A stretch of 64,000 nt of DNA, taken from an uncultured Pelagibacteraceae bacterium. Its GTDB lineage: Bacteria; Pseudomonadota; Alphaproteobacteria; Pelagibacterales; Pelagibacteraceae. Shown piece by piece: positions 29,044 to 40,356 of this stretch (within the stretch, counting starts at the first letter, position 1; each line of letters starts with the position of its first letter). The notes beneath the pieces were generated by a model. That model did no database searches and was not told where the DNA came from. It saw only the letters and a list, made by a program, of their open reading frames with translations. The DNA lies in contig CACJNE010000004.1 in the NCBI GenBank assembly GCA_902594675.1, positions 37,523-101,522 of the forward strand, in the 5' to 3' direction. Made by a program: the position numbers and the translations under genes.

Positions 29044-31504
<2,461 letters not shown>

Positions 31505-31528: not shown

Positions 31529-32299
31529 TCAAGCTGTTGCAAGCATTTTCTTTATCTCTGCAATAGCTTTTGCAGGATTTAAGCCCTTAGGGCAAGCATT
31601 TGTACAATTCAAGATAGTATGACATCTATAAAGTTTAAGCTCGTCAGCAACTTTTTTAAGTCTTTCTTTTCTGTCCTCGTCTCTACTATCAATTATCCAC
31701 CTGTAAGCTTGAAGTAAAACTGCAGGACCTAAATATTTTTCACCATTCCACCAATAACTTGGGCAGGATGTTGAACAGCATGCACACATTATACACTCAT
31801 ATAAACCATCTAATTTTGCTCTATCCTCTTTTGTCTGAATGTTTTCTTTGTCATTTATTTTTGTTGTTTTTAGCCAAGGTTCAACTGACTCGTATTGTTT
31901 ATAAAGAGTACTTAAGTCTCCAATTAAATCTTTTAAGACTTTTAAATGTGGTAATGGATAAATATCGATATCTCCATCTAATTCAGAATGAGATTTGGTA
32001 CACGCTAGACCATTCTTTCCATTCATATTCATTGCACATGATCCACATACTCCATGAGCACATGATCTTCTATATGCAATAGACGGATCAATTTCATTTT
32101 TGATTTTATTTAAAATATCTAAAACTTTAGAAGAGCAATTATCCATATCAACTTCATAAGTATCAATTCTTGGATTTTCATTTTTAGATGGATCCCATCT
32201 ATAAACATTTACTTTTCTTATATTTTTTGATCCTGTTTTGTCTTTGTAATATTGACCTTTTTTTATTTTTGAATTTGACGGTAAATTAAACTGTACCAT
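31529..32299 (-). CDS. sdhB: Succinate dehydrogenase iron-sulfur subunit
   Basis: Carries electrons from the SdhA flavin to quinone through 2Fe-2S, 4Fe-4S and 3Fe-4S clusters. Cysteine motifs are visible: [12 protein letters not shown] with a later C for the 2Fe-2S cluster, [11 protein letters not shown], and [17 protein letters not shown] for the other two clusters. 256 aa is normal. It is the last of sdhCDAB, with its start overlapping the sdhA stop by 1 bp. All cluster ligands appear intact, in contrast to the missing heme ligands of the anchors. Confidence 0.98.
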
Positions 32300-34074
32300 T
32301 AATATACTCTTTCCTGTGGAGGAAAATATTGTACATCATTAGTTAGTGTTGATCTATGAACTGGTCTATAATTTATTTTTGTTTTAGAGCCATTACACCA
32401 TGAGAGAGTATGTTGCATATAATTTTCATCATCTCTTTTCGGAAAGTCTTCTCTTGCATGTGCCCCTCTACTTTCTTTTCTGTGATAAGCTGAGTCCATA
32501 GTAGTAATCGCTTGTCTAATTAAGTTATCGAATTCTAAAGTTTCGACTAGATCTGTATTAAATATTAATGATTTATCTTTTACAGATAAAGATTCCATGC
32601 CCTCAAAAGGTTTTCTTATTTCATCAACACCTTCCTTTAATGTCTTTTCACTTCTAAATACAGCACATTTAGACTGCATCGTTTTTTGCATTGATAGTCT
32701 AAGTTCAGATGTAGGATTAGAACCTTGAGAGTTTCTAAGTTTATCAAATCTATCTAAACATCTATCAGTCTCACTTTTATCGATTTCGTCATGTTTCATT
32801 CCTGGTTTTACAAGTTCTGCTGCTCTTTTTGCAGCTGCTCTTCCAAAAACTACAAGATCAATTAATGAGTTTGAGCCCAATCTATTAGCACCATGAACAG
32901 ATACACATGCAGCTTCTCCGATCGCCATTAAACCAGGAACAGTTTTCTCCGATCCATTAACTGTTAGAACTTCGGCCTTATAGTTTGTTGGTATTCCTCC
33001 CATGTTGTAATGCACAGTTGGAACAACTGGTATTGGCTCCTTAGTTACATCTACGTTAGCAAATAATTTAGAAGCTTCAGAAATACCTGGTAATCTTTCT
33101 TCTATAACTTTAGGGTCTAAGTGATCTATATGAAGATGAACATGATCTTGTTCTTTTCCTATACCTCTACCTTCATTTATTTCTACCGCAATTGATCTAC
33201 TTACTACGTCTCTTGATGCTAAATCTTTTGCTTTTGGTGCGTAACGCTCCATAAATCTTTCACCTTTTGAATTTACTAAATAACCTCCTTCACCTCTAAC
33301 ACCTTCTGAAATTAAAGTTCCATGGCCGTATATGCCAGTTGGGTGAAATTGTACAAATTCCATGTCTTGTAAAGGCAAACCAGCTCTTAAAACCATCGCA
33401 TTACCATCTCCAGTACAAGTATGAGCAGAAGTAGCTGAGTAATATACTTTTCCATACCCTCCTGTTGCAATAATTGTAATGTGAGATCTGAATCTGTGTA
33501 TGGTTCCATCGTTAAGGTTCCAAGCAATTAAACCTTTGCATGCTCCATCTTTCATTATTAAATCTAAAGCAAAGTACTCAATAAAAAATTCTGTATTGTG
33601 TTTCAGGGCTTGACCATACAAAGTATGAAGTATCGCATGACCTGTTCTATCAGCAGCCGCACATGTTCTCTGGACTGTCTCGTTCCCATAATTTTTTGTC
33701 ATACCTCCAAAAGGTCTTTGATAGATTTTTCCATCCTCTGTTCTACTAAAAGGAACTCCATACTTTTCTAATTCTAGCACCGCTGCTGGAGCCTCTTTAC
33801 ATAAATATTCTATTGAGTCCTGGTCTCCCAACCAATCTGCACCTTTAACTGTATCATACATGTGCCATCGCCAGTCATCCTCACCCATATTTCCTAACGC
33901 TGCAGAAATACCTCCTTGTGCAGCAGAAGTATGACTTCTTGTGGGAAATACTTTTGACACACAGGCTGTTTTTAGACCAGCTTCACTTAGGCCAACTGCA
34001 GCTCTTAAACCTGAGCCACCAGCACCCAAGACAACTACATCATATTCATGATCAATTATTTTGTACGAACTCAT
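32299..34074 (-). CDS. sdhA: Succinate dehydrogenase flavoprotein subunit
   Basis: Oxidises succinate to fumarate through covalently bound FAD, facing the cytoplasm. FAD-binding [17 protein letters not shown], the FAD-linked histidine in [11 protein letters not shown], the active-site region [21 protein letters not shown], and the C-terminal [20 protein letters not shown] are present. 591 aa is normal. It follows sdhD by 2 bp. Identification is certain. Confidence 0.99.
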
Positions 34075-34076
34075 AA

Positions 34077-34400
34077 CTATAAATTAAATACTAAGATAAT
34101 AATTAATAATGGAAATACTATAGCAAAGATATTTAAGGTTTTATTTGCGGCATTTTTGATATTTTTGTGTTCAATATAATCTTCAAAAACCTCGCTTATG
34201 CTTAGTGCAGAGAAAAAATATGCAAAAATCAAAAACATGCTAAATAATAATTTGGATGGCTGTGAAGATATAAATGTTAGAACCTCATTATAGCTTTTGT
34301 CATAAATAGAAGCCAAACTCATTGCAAACCATATCATTAAAGGTATTAAAATTGCTGAACTTACTTTTAAAAACAACCATTTCTTAGTTACAGATCCCAT
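34077..34400 (-). CDS. sdhD: Succinate dehydrogenase membrane anchor SdhD, lacking the heme-ligand histidine
   Basis: Membrane anchor with three hydrophobic helices (about residues 12-33, 50-72 and 87-106). The family landmark EDY (E. coli Asp82-Tyr83, with Tyr83 at the quinone) is present in [10 protein letters not shown]. Counting 11 residues back from that Asp, where E. coli has heme ligand His71, this protein has Phe in the run AYFFSALS. The only histidine in the protein is after EDYIE, outside that position. 107 aa is a normal size. It overlaps sdhC by 1 bp. The assignment rests on position and EDY, so it is slightly less certain than SdhA/B. Confidence 0.88.
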
Positions 34401-34783
34401 TATATTATTAACCTTCCGATAGCATAAATTGAAACTGATATAGGAAAAGAGCCAATCAAAACAATCAATCCAGATATTTTTGTAGTTTTGGGTTCAAAAC
34501 CATATCCTAAGTCCATTAACAAATGCCTTATCTCACTTAGAACTTGAAATGTGAAAGACCAGATTATTCCAATACAAATAAATTTACCGAAAAAAGAGGA
34601 CAAAAAAGAACTTGTGTGTTCATAATAAACCTCACCCAATAATAATGAGGCTATCCATAAACCTATTAAAGTAACAGCAAAAAAATTTATTATACCAGTT
34701 ATCCGATGTGATATTGAAACCAATGAGGAAATGTGCCAGTTATAAATCTGTATATGTGGTGATATTGGATTTTTATCTTCCAT
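34400..34783 (-). CDS. sdhC: Succinate dehydrogenase cytochrome b556-type subunit SdhC, lacking the heme-ligand histidine
   Basis: Membrane anchor forming the quinone site with SdhD. It starts with the family motif SPHIQIYNW and has SISHRITG, matching the E. coli Ser27-His30-Arg31 quinone-site segment. Three hydrophobic helices follow. The second signature SEIRHLLMDLGYG aligns with E. coli GIRHMMMDFGYL; seven residues before that RH histidine, where E. coli has heme ligand His84, the codon is CAA (Gln). 127 aa is normal. It is the first sdh gene and overlaps the end of asd by 11 bp. Confidence 0.93.
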   Translation of the reverse strand: MEDKNPISPHIQIYNWHISSLVSISHRITGIINFFAVTLIGLWIASLLLGEVYYEHTSSFLSSFFGKFICIGIIWSFTFQVLSEIRHLLMDLGYGFEPKTTKISGLIVLIGSFPISVSIYAIGRLII

Positions 34784-35801: not shown

Positions 35802-36911
35802 CTAAATGAAAGGTAAATCACAAACTTTTCCATCAAAATGATTACCATTTATATTGATTTTGAAGGATTTCGACTCCTCAAAGTGAGGTTTATTTATCAT
35901 TGCTATTCCAATAACTTGGCCGAATGTTGGATTATAACATCCGGATCTTAATTCTCCAATTAATTGATTATTTTCATCAATTAAATCCATTGAACCAGTA
36001 ACATTTATTTCCTTAGTATCAATTTTCACTCCCATCAATTTTTTTTTAATTCCTTCTGATTTTATTTTCTTTAATTTTTCTTTACCTAAAAAATCTACGT
36101 CACTGTCAATATTGATATATTTATCAAATCCACATTCATATGGATTGTCTCCATTGTCCATGTCATTTCCATGTGAAAGTAAACCACTCTCAATACGTTC
36201 AATTAAATTTGGCCCACCTGGTTTAATATTAAATTCTTTACCAATTTCAAAAAGGTGATCGTATAGTTTTAAACCTGACTCGTTGTGTTCCATATAAATT
36301 TCATAGCCACCTTGTTTTGACCATCCAGATTTTGCAATAAGATGTTTATCTCCGCCAAATTCAAAATAATCAAAGCCAAAAAATTTTAAATTTACAATTT
36401 TTTCTCCAAAAACTTTTTCCATTAATTGGAATGATTTTGGTCCTTGCACTGCCATTATGTCAACATCGGGTTCAGAAATTTTTACATCAAATTTGTTTCC
36501 AATCGCTAATCCTTTGGCAAATAGAATTACATCTGAGTCAGCTAAAGAAATCCACCATCTATTTTCATTTAGTCTTAAGACTACAGGATCATTAATTAAA
36601 CCTGCATTATCATCAATGATTGGGCAGTAATAACATCTTCCATCTTTAGATTTTGATAAATCTCTACAAGTCATTAGTTGAACTAATTTAGCAGAATCCT
36701 TACCAGAAATTTCAACTTGTCTTTCAGCGGCAACATCCCAAATTTGAACATGCTCTTTCAAGTGATGATAAGCATCTTCTACAGAACCAAATGCTGCTGG
36801 CAACAACATATGATTATAAATGGTGTAAGCAGTCACACCTTGTTTCTCGATTCTAGAGGTATACGGTGTTCCTCTTAGTCTTCTTGATTTTGCTATTAAA
36901 AAGTTTTTCAT
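35802..36911 (-). CDS. dmdA: Dimethylsulfoniopropionate demethylase
   Basis: Transfers a methyl group from DMSP to tetrahydrofolate, giving 3-methylmercaptopropionate; GcvT/aminomethyltransferase fold, cytoplasmic. The sequence (start [20 protein letters not shown], then [23 protein letters not shown] and [18 protein letters not shown]) matches what I know of the Pelagibacter enzyme, and the 369-aa length agrees. The spacing from the upstream acyl-CoA ligase is 51 bp; asd is 18 bp downstream. The adjacent ligase and acyl-CoA dehydrogenase fit the demethylation pathway. A generic GcvT-like protein is unlikely given the strong resemblance. Confidence 0.95.
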
Positions 36912-36962
36912 TTATTTTCCCGCATTACTGTCATCTTATTCCAATTTTGTAAAGAAACTATA

Positions 36963-38591
36963 TTAGCTAAGCTCTCTAGCTTGTTTTCTTAATTCAAACT
37001 TTTGAATTTTACCCGTTGATGTCTTTGGCAATGGAGCAAATACTACTTTCTTTGGAAGTTTAAACCCAGCGAGGGTTTCTCTACAAAAAGTAATAATTTC
37101 CTCCTCTGTGCTAGATTTCCCTTCTATCAACTCCACAAAGGCACATGGAGTTTCTCCCCATTTCTCATCAGGCTTTGCAACCACTGCTGCTAGAGATACA
37201 GCAGGATGTTTTGATATTGTATTTTCGATTTCGATAGATGAAATATTTTCTCCGCCAGATATAATAATATCTTTAGACCTATCCTGAATTTTTATGTAAC
37301 CACTTGGATGCGTTACTGCTAAATCTCCTGAATGAAACCATCCACCTTCCATAGATTTTTCTGTTGCCTCTTTATCTTTAAAATAGCCTTTCATTACAAC
37401 ATTCCCTCTAATCATTATTTCACCCATAGTTTTTCCGTCATGAGGTATTGGTTTCATAGTTTCTGGGTCCATGACAACAACACCCTCCGTGTTTGGATAT
37501 CTTACACCTTGTCTAGCCTTGATTTCATTTTGATTGTCTTGATCTAATCCATCCCACTCGTCATTCCATGCACATTGTAAAATATGACCATAAGTTTCCG
37601 TTAAACCATAAACATGCATTACTTCAAATCCAAGTTTTTTCATTTTTTCAAAAATTATACTTGGAGGAGGAGCACCTGCAGTTAACACGTAAACTTTTCT
37701 TTTTAATTCTTTTTGTTGATCTTTTGGTGCGTTAGCCAGCATATTTAAAACAATAGGGGCACCTCCAAAATGTGTCACTTCGTATTTATCTATCAATTCG
37801 AATATTTTTTTAACATCAATGTTTCTTAAACATATGACTCTTCCATGAATCATTGACATTGTCCAAGGATAGCACCATCCATTACAATGAAACATCGGAA
37901 CTGTGTATAAAAAGTTTAATTTATTAGGCATGTTCCATGCGACAGCACTTCCGGTTGCCATTAAATATGATCCTCTATGATGATAAACTACTCCTTTTGG
38001 ATTCCCTGTTGTTCCTGATGTATATCCCAAAGCAATTGCCTGCCACTCATCTTTGGGTAATTTCCATGTATAGCCTTCATCACCTGTATTAAGAAAATCT
38101 TCATATTCCAAAGAGCCTATTGCTTTAGAGTCTTTTAAATTCGCATCTTTATCATCAATATCTATTATTTTTATTTCCTGCTTCACGTCTTCTAAAGCTT
38201 TTTTGATTACATCGTGAAATTGTCTATCTACTATTAATACTTTTGCCTCACTGTGATTTAGGATGTAGCTTATTGTCTTAGAGTCAAGTCTTGTGTTAAT
38301 TGCATTTATTACTGCACCAACCATTGGAATAGAATAATGTGCCTCAAAAATTTCTGGAGTGTTAAACGCTAAAACAGATACTGTGTCACCAGTTTTAATT
38401 CCAATCTTATCTAGTGCACTGGCAAACTTCACACATCTTTTATAAACTTCGCTCCAAGTATATTTTCTACTCTCGTAAACTACTGCCTCATAATTTGGGT
38501 AAATATCTTTTGCCCTCTCTAAAAAAGATAAAGGCGTTAATGGAACATAATTAGCATCATTTTTATCCAAATTTGTCTCATAATGGTTCAT
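36963..38591 (-). CDS. dmdB: Acyl-CoA ligase, probable methylmercaptopropionate-CoA ligase
   Basis: AMP-forming ligase that, in the DMSP demethylation route, converts methylmercaptopropionate to its CoA thioester. The ATP-binding motif is YTSGTTGNPKGVVYHHRG. Adenylation-domain landmarks follow: VYGLTETYGH, WFHSGDLAV, DIIISGGENISSIEIE, and the catalytic lysine region in LPKTSTGKIQKFELR. 542 aa is normal. It lies 1 bp after the acyl-CoA dehydrogenase gene and 51 bp before dmdA. The specific assignment is from neighbourhood and family; related ligases act on medium or short acids. Confidence 0.85.
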   Translation of the reverse strand: MNHYETNLDKNDANYVPLTPLSFLERAKDIYPNYEAVVYESRKYTWSEVYKRCVKFASALDKIGIKTGDTVSVLAFNTPEIFEAHYSIPMVGAVINAINTRLDSKTISYILNHSEAKVLIVDRQFHDVIKKALEDVKQEIKIIDIDDKDANLKDSKAIGSLEYEDFLNTGDEGYTWKLPKDEWQAIALGYTSGTTGNPKGVVYHHRGSYLMATGSAVAWNMPNKLNFLYTVPMFHCNGWCYPWTMSMIHGRVICLRNIDVKKIFELIDKYEVTHFGGAPIVLNMLANAPKDQQKELKRKVYVLTAGAPPPSIIFEKMKKLGFEVMHVYGLTETYGHILQCAWNDEWDGLDQDNQNEIKARQGVRYPNTEGVVVMDPETMKPIPHDGKTMGEIMIRGNVVMKGYFKDKEATEKSMEGGWFHSGDLAVTHPSGYIKIQDRSKDIIISGGENISSIEIENTISKHPAVSLAAVVAKPDEKWGETPCAFVELIEGKSSTEEEIITFCRETLAGFKLPKKVVFAPLPKTSTGKIQKFELRKQARELS

Positions 38592-38592
38592 G

Positions 38593-40356
38593 CTAATTAA
38601 ATTTATAGTTCATAATATAATTACTTCCAGTTGTTGCAGTAATATAACTACTTTCTATTCTAGGAAGTACTCTATTGAAGTAAAAGTTTGCGGTTTGAAT
38701 TTTGTCCTCATAAAAGTTTTTATTGCTGTCATATTCCTTAAAAGAAACCTCAAGCACTTTCAACCATGCATGTCCTGTAGCCACTAAACCTAAAACTTTT
38801 AAATAATCATTACATGCTCCACTAGCATCCTCTGGAGAATTTTTGATTTTTTCTTTCATCCAATCAGTAAATTTGTATAAAATATCTAAATGATAATTAA
38901 GTTGTTTTATAAATGGCTCTGCTTTTTTGTCTGTGATGTTAATCTCGTCTTTAACTAGGTTTAAATAGTTTTCAATAACATCACCATTTTTGTTAATTAA
39001 CTTTCTAAAAACTAAGTCAGCCGCCTGAACTGAATTCGTTCCCTCATAGATAGGTGTAATTCTATTATCTCGATAGAATTGTTCAATACCTTGATCTTTT
39101 GTAAATCCATACCCTCCATGAATTTGCATTGCTTCACTGGTTATCTCCATTGCATTGTCTGTGAAAAGTGATTTAACAACTGGTGTCATCAATGAAACAA
39201 GATCTGAAGCCTCCTGTTTTATTTTTTCATCAGAATGATTCAAACTTACTTCAATTTGCTGAGATAGCCAGAAACTCAATGCTCTTTGTCCTTCTATCAT
39301 AGATTTCATGCTTAAAAGTGATCTTCTTATATCAACATGATCAATAATAAAATCTGCGCCATTGTTTGATTTAGAATTAAATGCCTTCCCCTGTTTTCTT
39401 TCTTTGGCATAAGTAAGAGAATTTTGGTATGCAATTTCTGAAATTCCAAGTCCCTGAATCCCAACAATTATTCTTTCTAAATTCATCATTGTAAACATAG
39501 AGTTTAGACCTTTATTTTTAGGTCCAATCATGTATCCAACAGCATCATCAAAATTTAAAACACATGTTGCAGATCCTTTAATTCCCATTTTATTTTCAAT
39601 AGAGCCTGTTGAAACACCATTTCTTGGTCCAACAGTTCCATCTTTATTTAAAACGAATTTGGGAACTAAAAATAAACTAATTCCTTTAGTCCCTGCCGGA
39701 GAGTCTGTTGATCGTGCTAACACTAAATGAATAATATTTTCTGTTAAATCTTGGTCACCTGAGGTAATGAAAATTTTTTGTCCACTTATCTTGTATGTTC
39801 CATCTTTTTGATCTACAGCTTTAGTTTTTAACAAACCTAAATCTGTTCCACATACTGGTTCTGTAAGACACATTGTACCACTCCATTTCCCCTCTACCAT
39901 TTTAGGTAAATAAGTATTCTTTATTTTTTCATCTGCATGTCTTAGTAAACAATTATATGCCCCAATTGTTAGTTCGCTATAAAGTTTAAATGACAAGCTT
40001 GCTGATGAAAGCATTTCATCAAAAAATGTACTGACTGTTTTTGGCATTCCTTGTCCACCGTATTTTGGATCACAAGATAAAGAAATCCATCCATCTTCTA
40101 TAAATTTTTGGTAAGCCTCTTTGTATCCTGGGGGTGTTCTGACAACTCCATTTTCAAGAACTGCAGGCGTTTCATCTCCACTCTTTGCAAGAGGCAAAAT
40201 TAAGTTTTGAGTTATTTTAGCTGCTTCATCCAAAATATCTTTCACTAATTCTGAGTTAACTTCCTTGTATTTTTCAATCTCATTATATTTTTTATTGTTT
40301 CTCAATTTATCAAAGAGAAACATCATATCTTCGACGGGTGCATTATAAGTTGGCAT
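38593..40356 (-). CDS. dmdC: Acyl-CoA dehydrogenase, probable methylmercaptopropionyl-CoA dehydrogenase
   Basis: FAD-dependent alpha,beta-dehydrogenation of an acyl-CoA thioester; in this pathway, of methylmercaptopropionyl-CoA. The protein has the long DmdC-like form (587 aa, versus about 380 for ordinary acyl-CoA dehydrogenases), with GTMCLTEPVCGTDLGLLKT, KIFITSGDQDL, MQIHGGYGFTKDQGIEQFYRD and the catalytic Glu segment PIYEGTNSVQAADLV, followed by a C-terminal helical domain. It is 26 bp after leuB and 1 bp before the ligase. No enoyl-CoA hydratase (DmdD-like) gene is nearby, so the last step must be encoded elsewhere. Confidence 0.86.
   Translation of the reverse strand: MPTYNAPVEDMMFLFDKLRNNKKYNEIEKYKEVNSELVKDILDEAAKITQNLILPLAKSGDETPAVLENGVVRTPPGYKEAYQKFIEDGWISLSCDPKYGGQGMPKTVSTFFDEMLSSASLSFKLYSELTIGAYNCLLRHADEKIKNTYLPKMVEGKWSGTMCLTEPVCGTDLGLLKTKAVDQKDGTYKISGQKIFITSGDQDLTENIIHLVLARSTDSPAGTKGISLFLVPKFVLNKDGTVGPRNGVSTGSIENKMGIKGSATCVLNFDDAVGYMIGPKNKGLNSMFTMMNLERIIVGIQGLGISEIAYQNSLTYAKERKQGKAFNSKSNNGADFIIDHVDIRRSLLSMKSMIEGQRALSFWLSQQIEVSLNHSDEKIKQEASDLVSLMTPVVKSLFTDNAMEITSEAMQIHGGYGFTKDQGIEQFYRDNRITPIYEGTNSVQAADLVFRKLINKNGDVIENYLNLVKDEINITDKKAEPFIKQLNYHLDILYKFTDWMKEKIKNSPEDASGACNDYLKVLGLVATGHAWLKVLEVSFKEYDSNKNFYEDKIQTANFYFNRVLPRIESSYITATTGSNYIMNYKFN

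Follow-up and report, generated by a model that had tools for sequence, protein, structure and literature searches.

The sdhCDAB operon of an uncultured Pelagibacteraceae bacterium, carried by the 64,000-nucleotide stretch of DNA that we analysed (the window), very likely codes for an active complex II that derives from the one-heme type and works without heme b, with protein contacts replacing the heme. Both histidines that bind heme b in the E. coli enzyme were substituted in the membrane anchors, by Gln in SdhC and by Phe in SdhD, and a glycine of SdhC located one helical turn from the lost ligand was replaced with Glu. Comparison with related loci indicated that ligand loss is derived and graded and that it characterises particular lineages within SAR11 instead of the entire group. 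Most of the ocean SAR11 sampled had lost one or both heme histidines while their working parts were intact, and these enzymes are very probably heme-free.

All four Sdh proteins scored above the curated cut-offs of succinate dehydrogenase families in a profile search and were encoded by one operon on the minus strand of the window in the order sdhC-sdhD-sdhA-sdhB, followed by genes for an aldehyde dehydrogenase, Mdh (mdh) and SucC (sucC). The genes and the residues of interest were located as follows.

34400-34783, minus strand: sdhC, membrane anchor, 127 aa (TIGR02970, 115 bits, cut-off 52.3; PF01127; aligned to E. coli SdhC from the PDB).
34077-34400, minus strand: sdhD, membrane anchor, 107 aa (TIGR02968, 48.6 bits, cut-off 41.8).
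32299-34074, minus strand: sdhA, flavoprotein, with the covalent-FAD His and substrate residues retained (TIGR01816; E. coli H45, H242, R286, H354, R399).
31529-32299, minus strand: sdhB, iron-sulfur subunit, with all cluster cysteines retained (NF004616; residue check).
34544-34546, minus strand: SdhC Gln80, codon CAA, at the position of the E. coli heme ligand His84 (HMMER and multiple alignments).
34532-34534, minus strand: SdhC Glu84, codon GAG, at the position of E. coli Gly88 (alignment; this Glu is shared by 139/139 SAR11 loci in the family that have lost a ligand).
34212-34214, minus strand: SdhD Phe63, codon TTC, at the position of the E. coli heme ligand His71 (alignments).
34200-34202, minus strand: SdhD Ser67, at the position of E. 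coli Gly75 and of Glu112 in heme-free yeast Sdh4 (alignments).
34365-34367, minus strand: SdhD Lys12, at the position of E. coli Arg20 and of Lys73 in heme-free yeast Sdh4 (alignments).
34703-34705, minus strand: SdhC Arg27 (E. coli Arg31), invariant quinone-site Arg and proposed partner of Glu84 (alignment).
34176-34181, minus strand: SdhD Asp74-Tyr75 (E. coli Asp82-Tyr83), an invariant pair of the quinone site (alignment).

The genome assembly (1.24 Mb in 31 contigs, ~90% complete) contained no second, heme-type sdhCD pair, its sole PF01127 matches being the sdhC and sdhD of the window. The nearest SdhC genes with a name, the best six of them 76-96% identical, came from Pelagibacteraceae single-cell genomes, which makes the host a SAR11 bacterium. 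A phmmer search with SdhD found no relatives in the PDB. The matches of the anchors to TIGR02970 and TIGR02968 pointed to descent from type C complex II, whose His ligands at SdhC84 and SdhD71 were absent, and SdhC scored 20.1 bits against Fumarate_red_D, below the cut-off of 25, which placed it outside the FrdC/FrdD anchor families. By descent the SAR11 enzyme is type C; it should work like type D without belonging to the FrdCD family.

HMMER pairing with E. coli SdhC and the multiple alignments agreed on Gln (CAA, 34546-34544) at the His84 position, and the multiple alignments placed Phe (TTC, 34214-34212) at the His71 position, both as stated in the original prediction. Its description of the remaining residues was also borne out: the single histidine of SdhD was His78, just past the EDY motif; Ser27, His30 and Arg31 of the SdhC quinone site and Asp82 and Tyr83 of SdhD (E. 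coli numbers) were retained in the alignments; and a residue check found all SdhB cluster cysteines in place. SdhC His91 and Asp95 were retained too, as were Pro160, Trp164, His207 and Ile209 of SdhB (all E. coli numbers), and the covalent-FAD His and the substrate, Fe-S and quinone-site residues that were checked proved invariant. The histidines of the window's SdhC were His10, 17, 26, 56 and 87 (the protein's own numbering), and the SdhC and SdhD alignments showed no replacement histidine gained near the lost ligands. Beyond the predicted substitutions, we found SdhC Gly88 replaced with Glu, SdhD Arg20 with Lys, Ala23 with Ser or Gly, and Gly75 with Ser or Thr. Misalignment of the ligand sites was rejected, as HMMER and MAFFT agreed and the SxxHR, IRH and DY motifs anchored both proteins. 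Sequencing error, a pseudogene or chance was rejected as well, since the ligand changes recurred without exception across the window's genus (64 loci, each lacking one or both ligands); together with the His/His pair in nearly all loci of other alphaproteobacteria and in every non-alpha locus besides E. coli, this recurrence argued against both sequencing error and chance.

The survey comprised 339 sdh loci, which are counted here as loci and not as independent genomes because some genomes were represented twice. Non-alpha Proteobacteria apart from E. coli were His/His throughout (55/55 loci), and among other alphaproteobacteria 94/97 loci were, the exceptions being L156 and L157 (Tyr/His at SdhC84/SdhD71) and L182 (His/Tyr). 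The 64 loci of the window's genus (g1) were divided between Gln/Phe (51), Gln/Tyr (6), Gln/His (5) and His/Phe (2). Within the same SAR11 family, six genera (g3, g5, g6, g8, g9 and g12) were His/His, g2 and g4 were His/Phe or Gln/Phe, g7 was Tyr/Asn and g14 Gln/Asn. Three Tyr/His or Asn/His genera were found in the sister family f2, along with g16, which was His/His. The original expectation of Gln and Phe across SAR11 therefore held for most g1 loci but was too broad, as the loss was confined to certain lineages, some of which keep one His. Five g1 loci (L142-L146) had His at SdhD71 together with Gln84 and Glu88 and were nested among Phe/Tyr relatives, which looks like a reversion at a site that would no longer be a ligand. 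In f2, loci L114-L123 combined Tyr or Asn at SdhC84 and Cys, Ser or Asp at SdhC88 with a retained SdhD His71, an independent and partial loss. The alphaproteobacterial exceptions L156 and L157, with Tyr at SdhC84, had Glu at SdhD75, the position of yeast Sdh4 Glu112, and may represent further heme losses.

The substitution at SdhC88 accompanied ligand loss without exception within the window's SAR11 family: Glu was found in 139/139 ligand-loss loci versus Gly in 31/31 His/His loci. The same 139 loci were variable at the ligand positions themselves, with Gln (118), His (19), Tyr (1) or Phe (1) at SdhC84 and Phe (114), Tyr (16), His (5) or Asn (4) at SdhD71. Glu88 was encoded by GAA in 92 and GAG in 47 of them, and this use of both codons indicated that selection maintains Glu88, whereas the ligand positions are drifting. 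SdhD Arg20 was changed to Lys in 134/139 of these loci, although Lys at this position was also seen in a few His/His enzymes, and the Ala23 to Ser/Gly and Gly75 to Ser/Thr changes of SdhD accompanied Glu88. In their E. coli work, Tran et al. selected SdhD Val19 and Ala23 among the residues lying within 5 Å of the heme (PMC3290573). In the complete set, all 152 proteins with a lost ligand had a residue other than Gly at SdhC88 (150) or SdhD75 (Glu in L156, Ser in L182), and Gly stood at SdhC88 in 183/185 His/His proteins, tallies that count related sequences and correspond to about four independent pairs on the trees. An independent-pairs test gave agreement in 3/4 pairs and disagreement in none, too few events for significance.

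Trees built from five genes (SdhA, SdhB, the aldehyde dehydrogenase, Mdh and SucC) grouped g7, a genus with Tyr84, Asn71 and Glu88, with g9 and g12 (support 99/98) and put it amid His/His genera, g5 being the third; g7 thus lost its ligands and gained Glu88 independently. Family f2 separately lost the SdhC ligand, the residue at 88 there being Cys, Ser or Asp. According to these trees, ligand loss in SAR11 has at least three origins, one of which, besides that of the window's group, brought the same Glu. In the free five-gene tree the His/His genera g3, g6 and g8 were placed weakly beside g1 (81/77), and a single Glu88 origin for g1, g2 and g4 was not rejected (p-AU 0.388). A regain of His/His in g3, g6 and g8 was considered, as a quick SdhA-only tree nested them in the loss group; it was set aside given their weak five-gene placement and the single Glu88 origin that was not rejected. 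Several members of g2 and g4 were His/Phe, suggesting that the main lineage probably gave up the SdhD ligand first and the SdhC ligand later.

In such an enzyme, electrons would pass from FAD through [2Fe-2S], [4Fe-4S] and [3Fe-4S] to ubiquinone, a route that leaves the heme aside, and the heme's job of holding SdhC and SdhD together would be passed to protein contacts. The carboxylate of SdhC Glu84 (E. coli 88) is expected near the place of the would-be heme propionate, where it probably pairs with SdhC Arg27 (Arg31) or SdhD Lys12 (position 20); Lys12 may in turn pair with SdhC Asp91 (Asp95), like the Lys-Asp pair of heme-free yeast complex II. Glu88 and Lys20 would thereby replace the propionate contacts, with the conserved Arg31 and Asp95 as their partners. 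An AlphaFold model of the fused SdhC-SdhD chain of a relative (L147) had a mean pLDDT of 89 and a pTM of 0.58, with the relative placing of the subunits unsure, and its best solved matches were E. coli SdhC structures, one of them that of the His84Met mutant; E. coli SdhD ranked lower. These matches agree with descent of the anchors from the type C families.

Natural heme-free complex II occurs in yeast and Tetrahymena, so the kind is already known. The S. cerevisiae enzyme (PDB 9QDL/9QDM) is naturally heme-free; its Sdh4 Glu112 replaces a glycine and pairs with Sdh3 Arg97 in the place of the heme propionate, and Sdh4 Lys73 pairs with Sdh3 Asp167 (PMC13066397). In our alignment, yeast Sdh4 (checked against PDB 9qdl_D) placed Lys73, Tyr108 and Glu112 on E. 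coli Arg20, His71 and Gly75, and Sdh3 Arg97, which bridges to the Glu at the SdhD75 position, is the equivalent of Arg31. SAR11 thus shares Lys20 and an aromatic residue 71 with yeast and carries the carboxylate on the other anchor. Both enzymes are derived from type C, with heme absent (as predicted for SAR11) and Glu in place of the glycine four residues after a ligand. However, S. cerevisiae keeps the SdhC His and has the Glu on SdhD (position 75), whereas SAR11 loses both His, has the Glu on SdhC (88) and represents a separate, bacterial origin. The natural complex II of Tetrahymena thermophila also has two core anchors without heme (PMC10227065), the state predicted for SAR11, but it has diverged strongly, carries additional subunits and has cardiolipin where the heme would be, in contrast to the ordinary-sized anchors and standard operon of SAR11. 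The passages of PMC3290573 concerned with E. coli cite a heme-free SdhCDAB variant, of the same family, that works without heme, with significant activity and growth on succinate, and describe the heme as lying off the cluster-quinone path and stabilising the enzyme. This variant was made by mutation and is less active, whereas SAR11 has natural residues that may compensate. E. coli FrdABCD (type D) has two anchors and no heme, again as predicted for SAR11, with anchors of different families. FrdABCD works mainly in the direction opposite to succinate dehydrogenase. A further comparison is with the His/His complex II of the six SAR11 genera, an orthologous enzyme of the same family and operon that keeps both ligands and Gly88. 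The novelty in SAR11 lies in separate bacterial origins, in the disappearance of both ligands and in SdhC Glu88.

Steric fit or other residues could still keep the heme in place, SdhC His30, His91 or a weak contact of Gln84 being examples. Loss-type SAR11 had an invariant His91 and an almost invariant His30, SdhB His207 was conserved as well, the E. coli His84Met and His71Met mutants have been crystallised, and E. coli single-ligand mutants can retain heme, to judge from the title of Maklashina 2001 as cited in PMC13066397. Ligand loss alone is therefore no proof of heme absence, least of all in the one-His relatives. However, His30, His91 and SdhB His207 also serve the quinone site and the interface, and His30 and His91 occur equally in the His/His enzymes, so nothing was gained there. 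The charged Glu that every loss-type protein of the family has in place of the glycine next to the ligand, and ligand positions that drift freely, unlike a retained site, also make a retained heme improbable. A lipid in the heme pocket is a further reading: a phospholipid, cardiolipin, occupies the heme place in Tetrahymena (PMC10227065), and a lipid is buried deeper in yeast (PMC13066397). By this analogy another molecule may fill the SAR11 pocket, though we would lean against it; its presence would be compatible with a heme-free enzyme and not exclusive of it.

That the anchor is degenerate and the enzyme inactive or partly working is hardly credible. The sole point in its favour is the ligand loss itself, against which stand a complete sdhCDAB operon with mdh and sucC of the TCA cycle next to it, the invariance of the catalytic, cluster and quinone-site residues checked, the strong conservation of Glu88, and the fact that the genome's only two PF01127 matches are these anchors. 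The active, heme-free complex II of the original prediction thus stands as the best reading, with both ligands lost, a conserved Glu, an otherwise intact enzyme and heme-free relatives that work; its activity, the absence of heme and the salt bridges are what we infer. Extended to Pelagibacter-type SAR11 in general, we consider it rather likely that complex II is heme-free, with a Glu-centred salt bridge in place of the heme contacts and more than one bacterial origin, in parallel to yeast and alongside close relatives that keep both histidines or one. As anticipated, literature searches covering few subscription papers found no description of a heme-free SAR11 complex II, nor a spectroscopic study of the SAR11 enzyme.

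The original prediction also read the loss as an adaptation to iron-poor water that saves iron and heme. Field additions of iron do elicit a response from SAR11 (PMC11069385), yet six SAR11 genera keep both His, the window's genome retains ferrochelatase and a heme-copper oxidase (COX1), the single heme Fe compares with nine Fe-S irons per enzyme (1 of ~10 Fe), and loss of a dispensable cofactor fits the pattern equally well. An iron-saving motive is thus possible but unsupported, and we regard it as unlikely.

What heme b does in complex II is a matter of dispute. The natural series from His/His through one His to none, found within one bacterial order whose operon and catalytic subunits stay the same, makes this role directly testable and names SdhC Glu88 as the proposed compensating residue. 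If the heme-free reading is true, a very abundant respirer of the ocean runs a complex II unlike the textbook type.

Several features of the gene neighbourhood were also recorded. The aldehyde dehydrogenase between sdhB and mdh (30011-31504, minus strand) was of the methylmalonate-semialdehyde type (TIGR01722, 702 bits), and almost every SAR11 stretch of sufficient length contained a match to it. On its other side the sdh operon is adjoined, behind asd, by dmdA for DMSP demethylase (NF009133, 570 bits), accompanied by genes for an acyl-CoA synthetase and an acyl-CoA dehydrogenase-like protein; this region (35802-40356, minus strand) is likely a DMSP demethylation cluster. A single stop codon was all that separated sdhC from sdhD, which shared a frame, in L147/L030 and some two dozen further loci.
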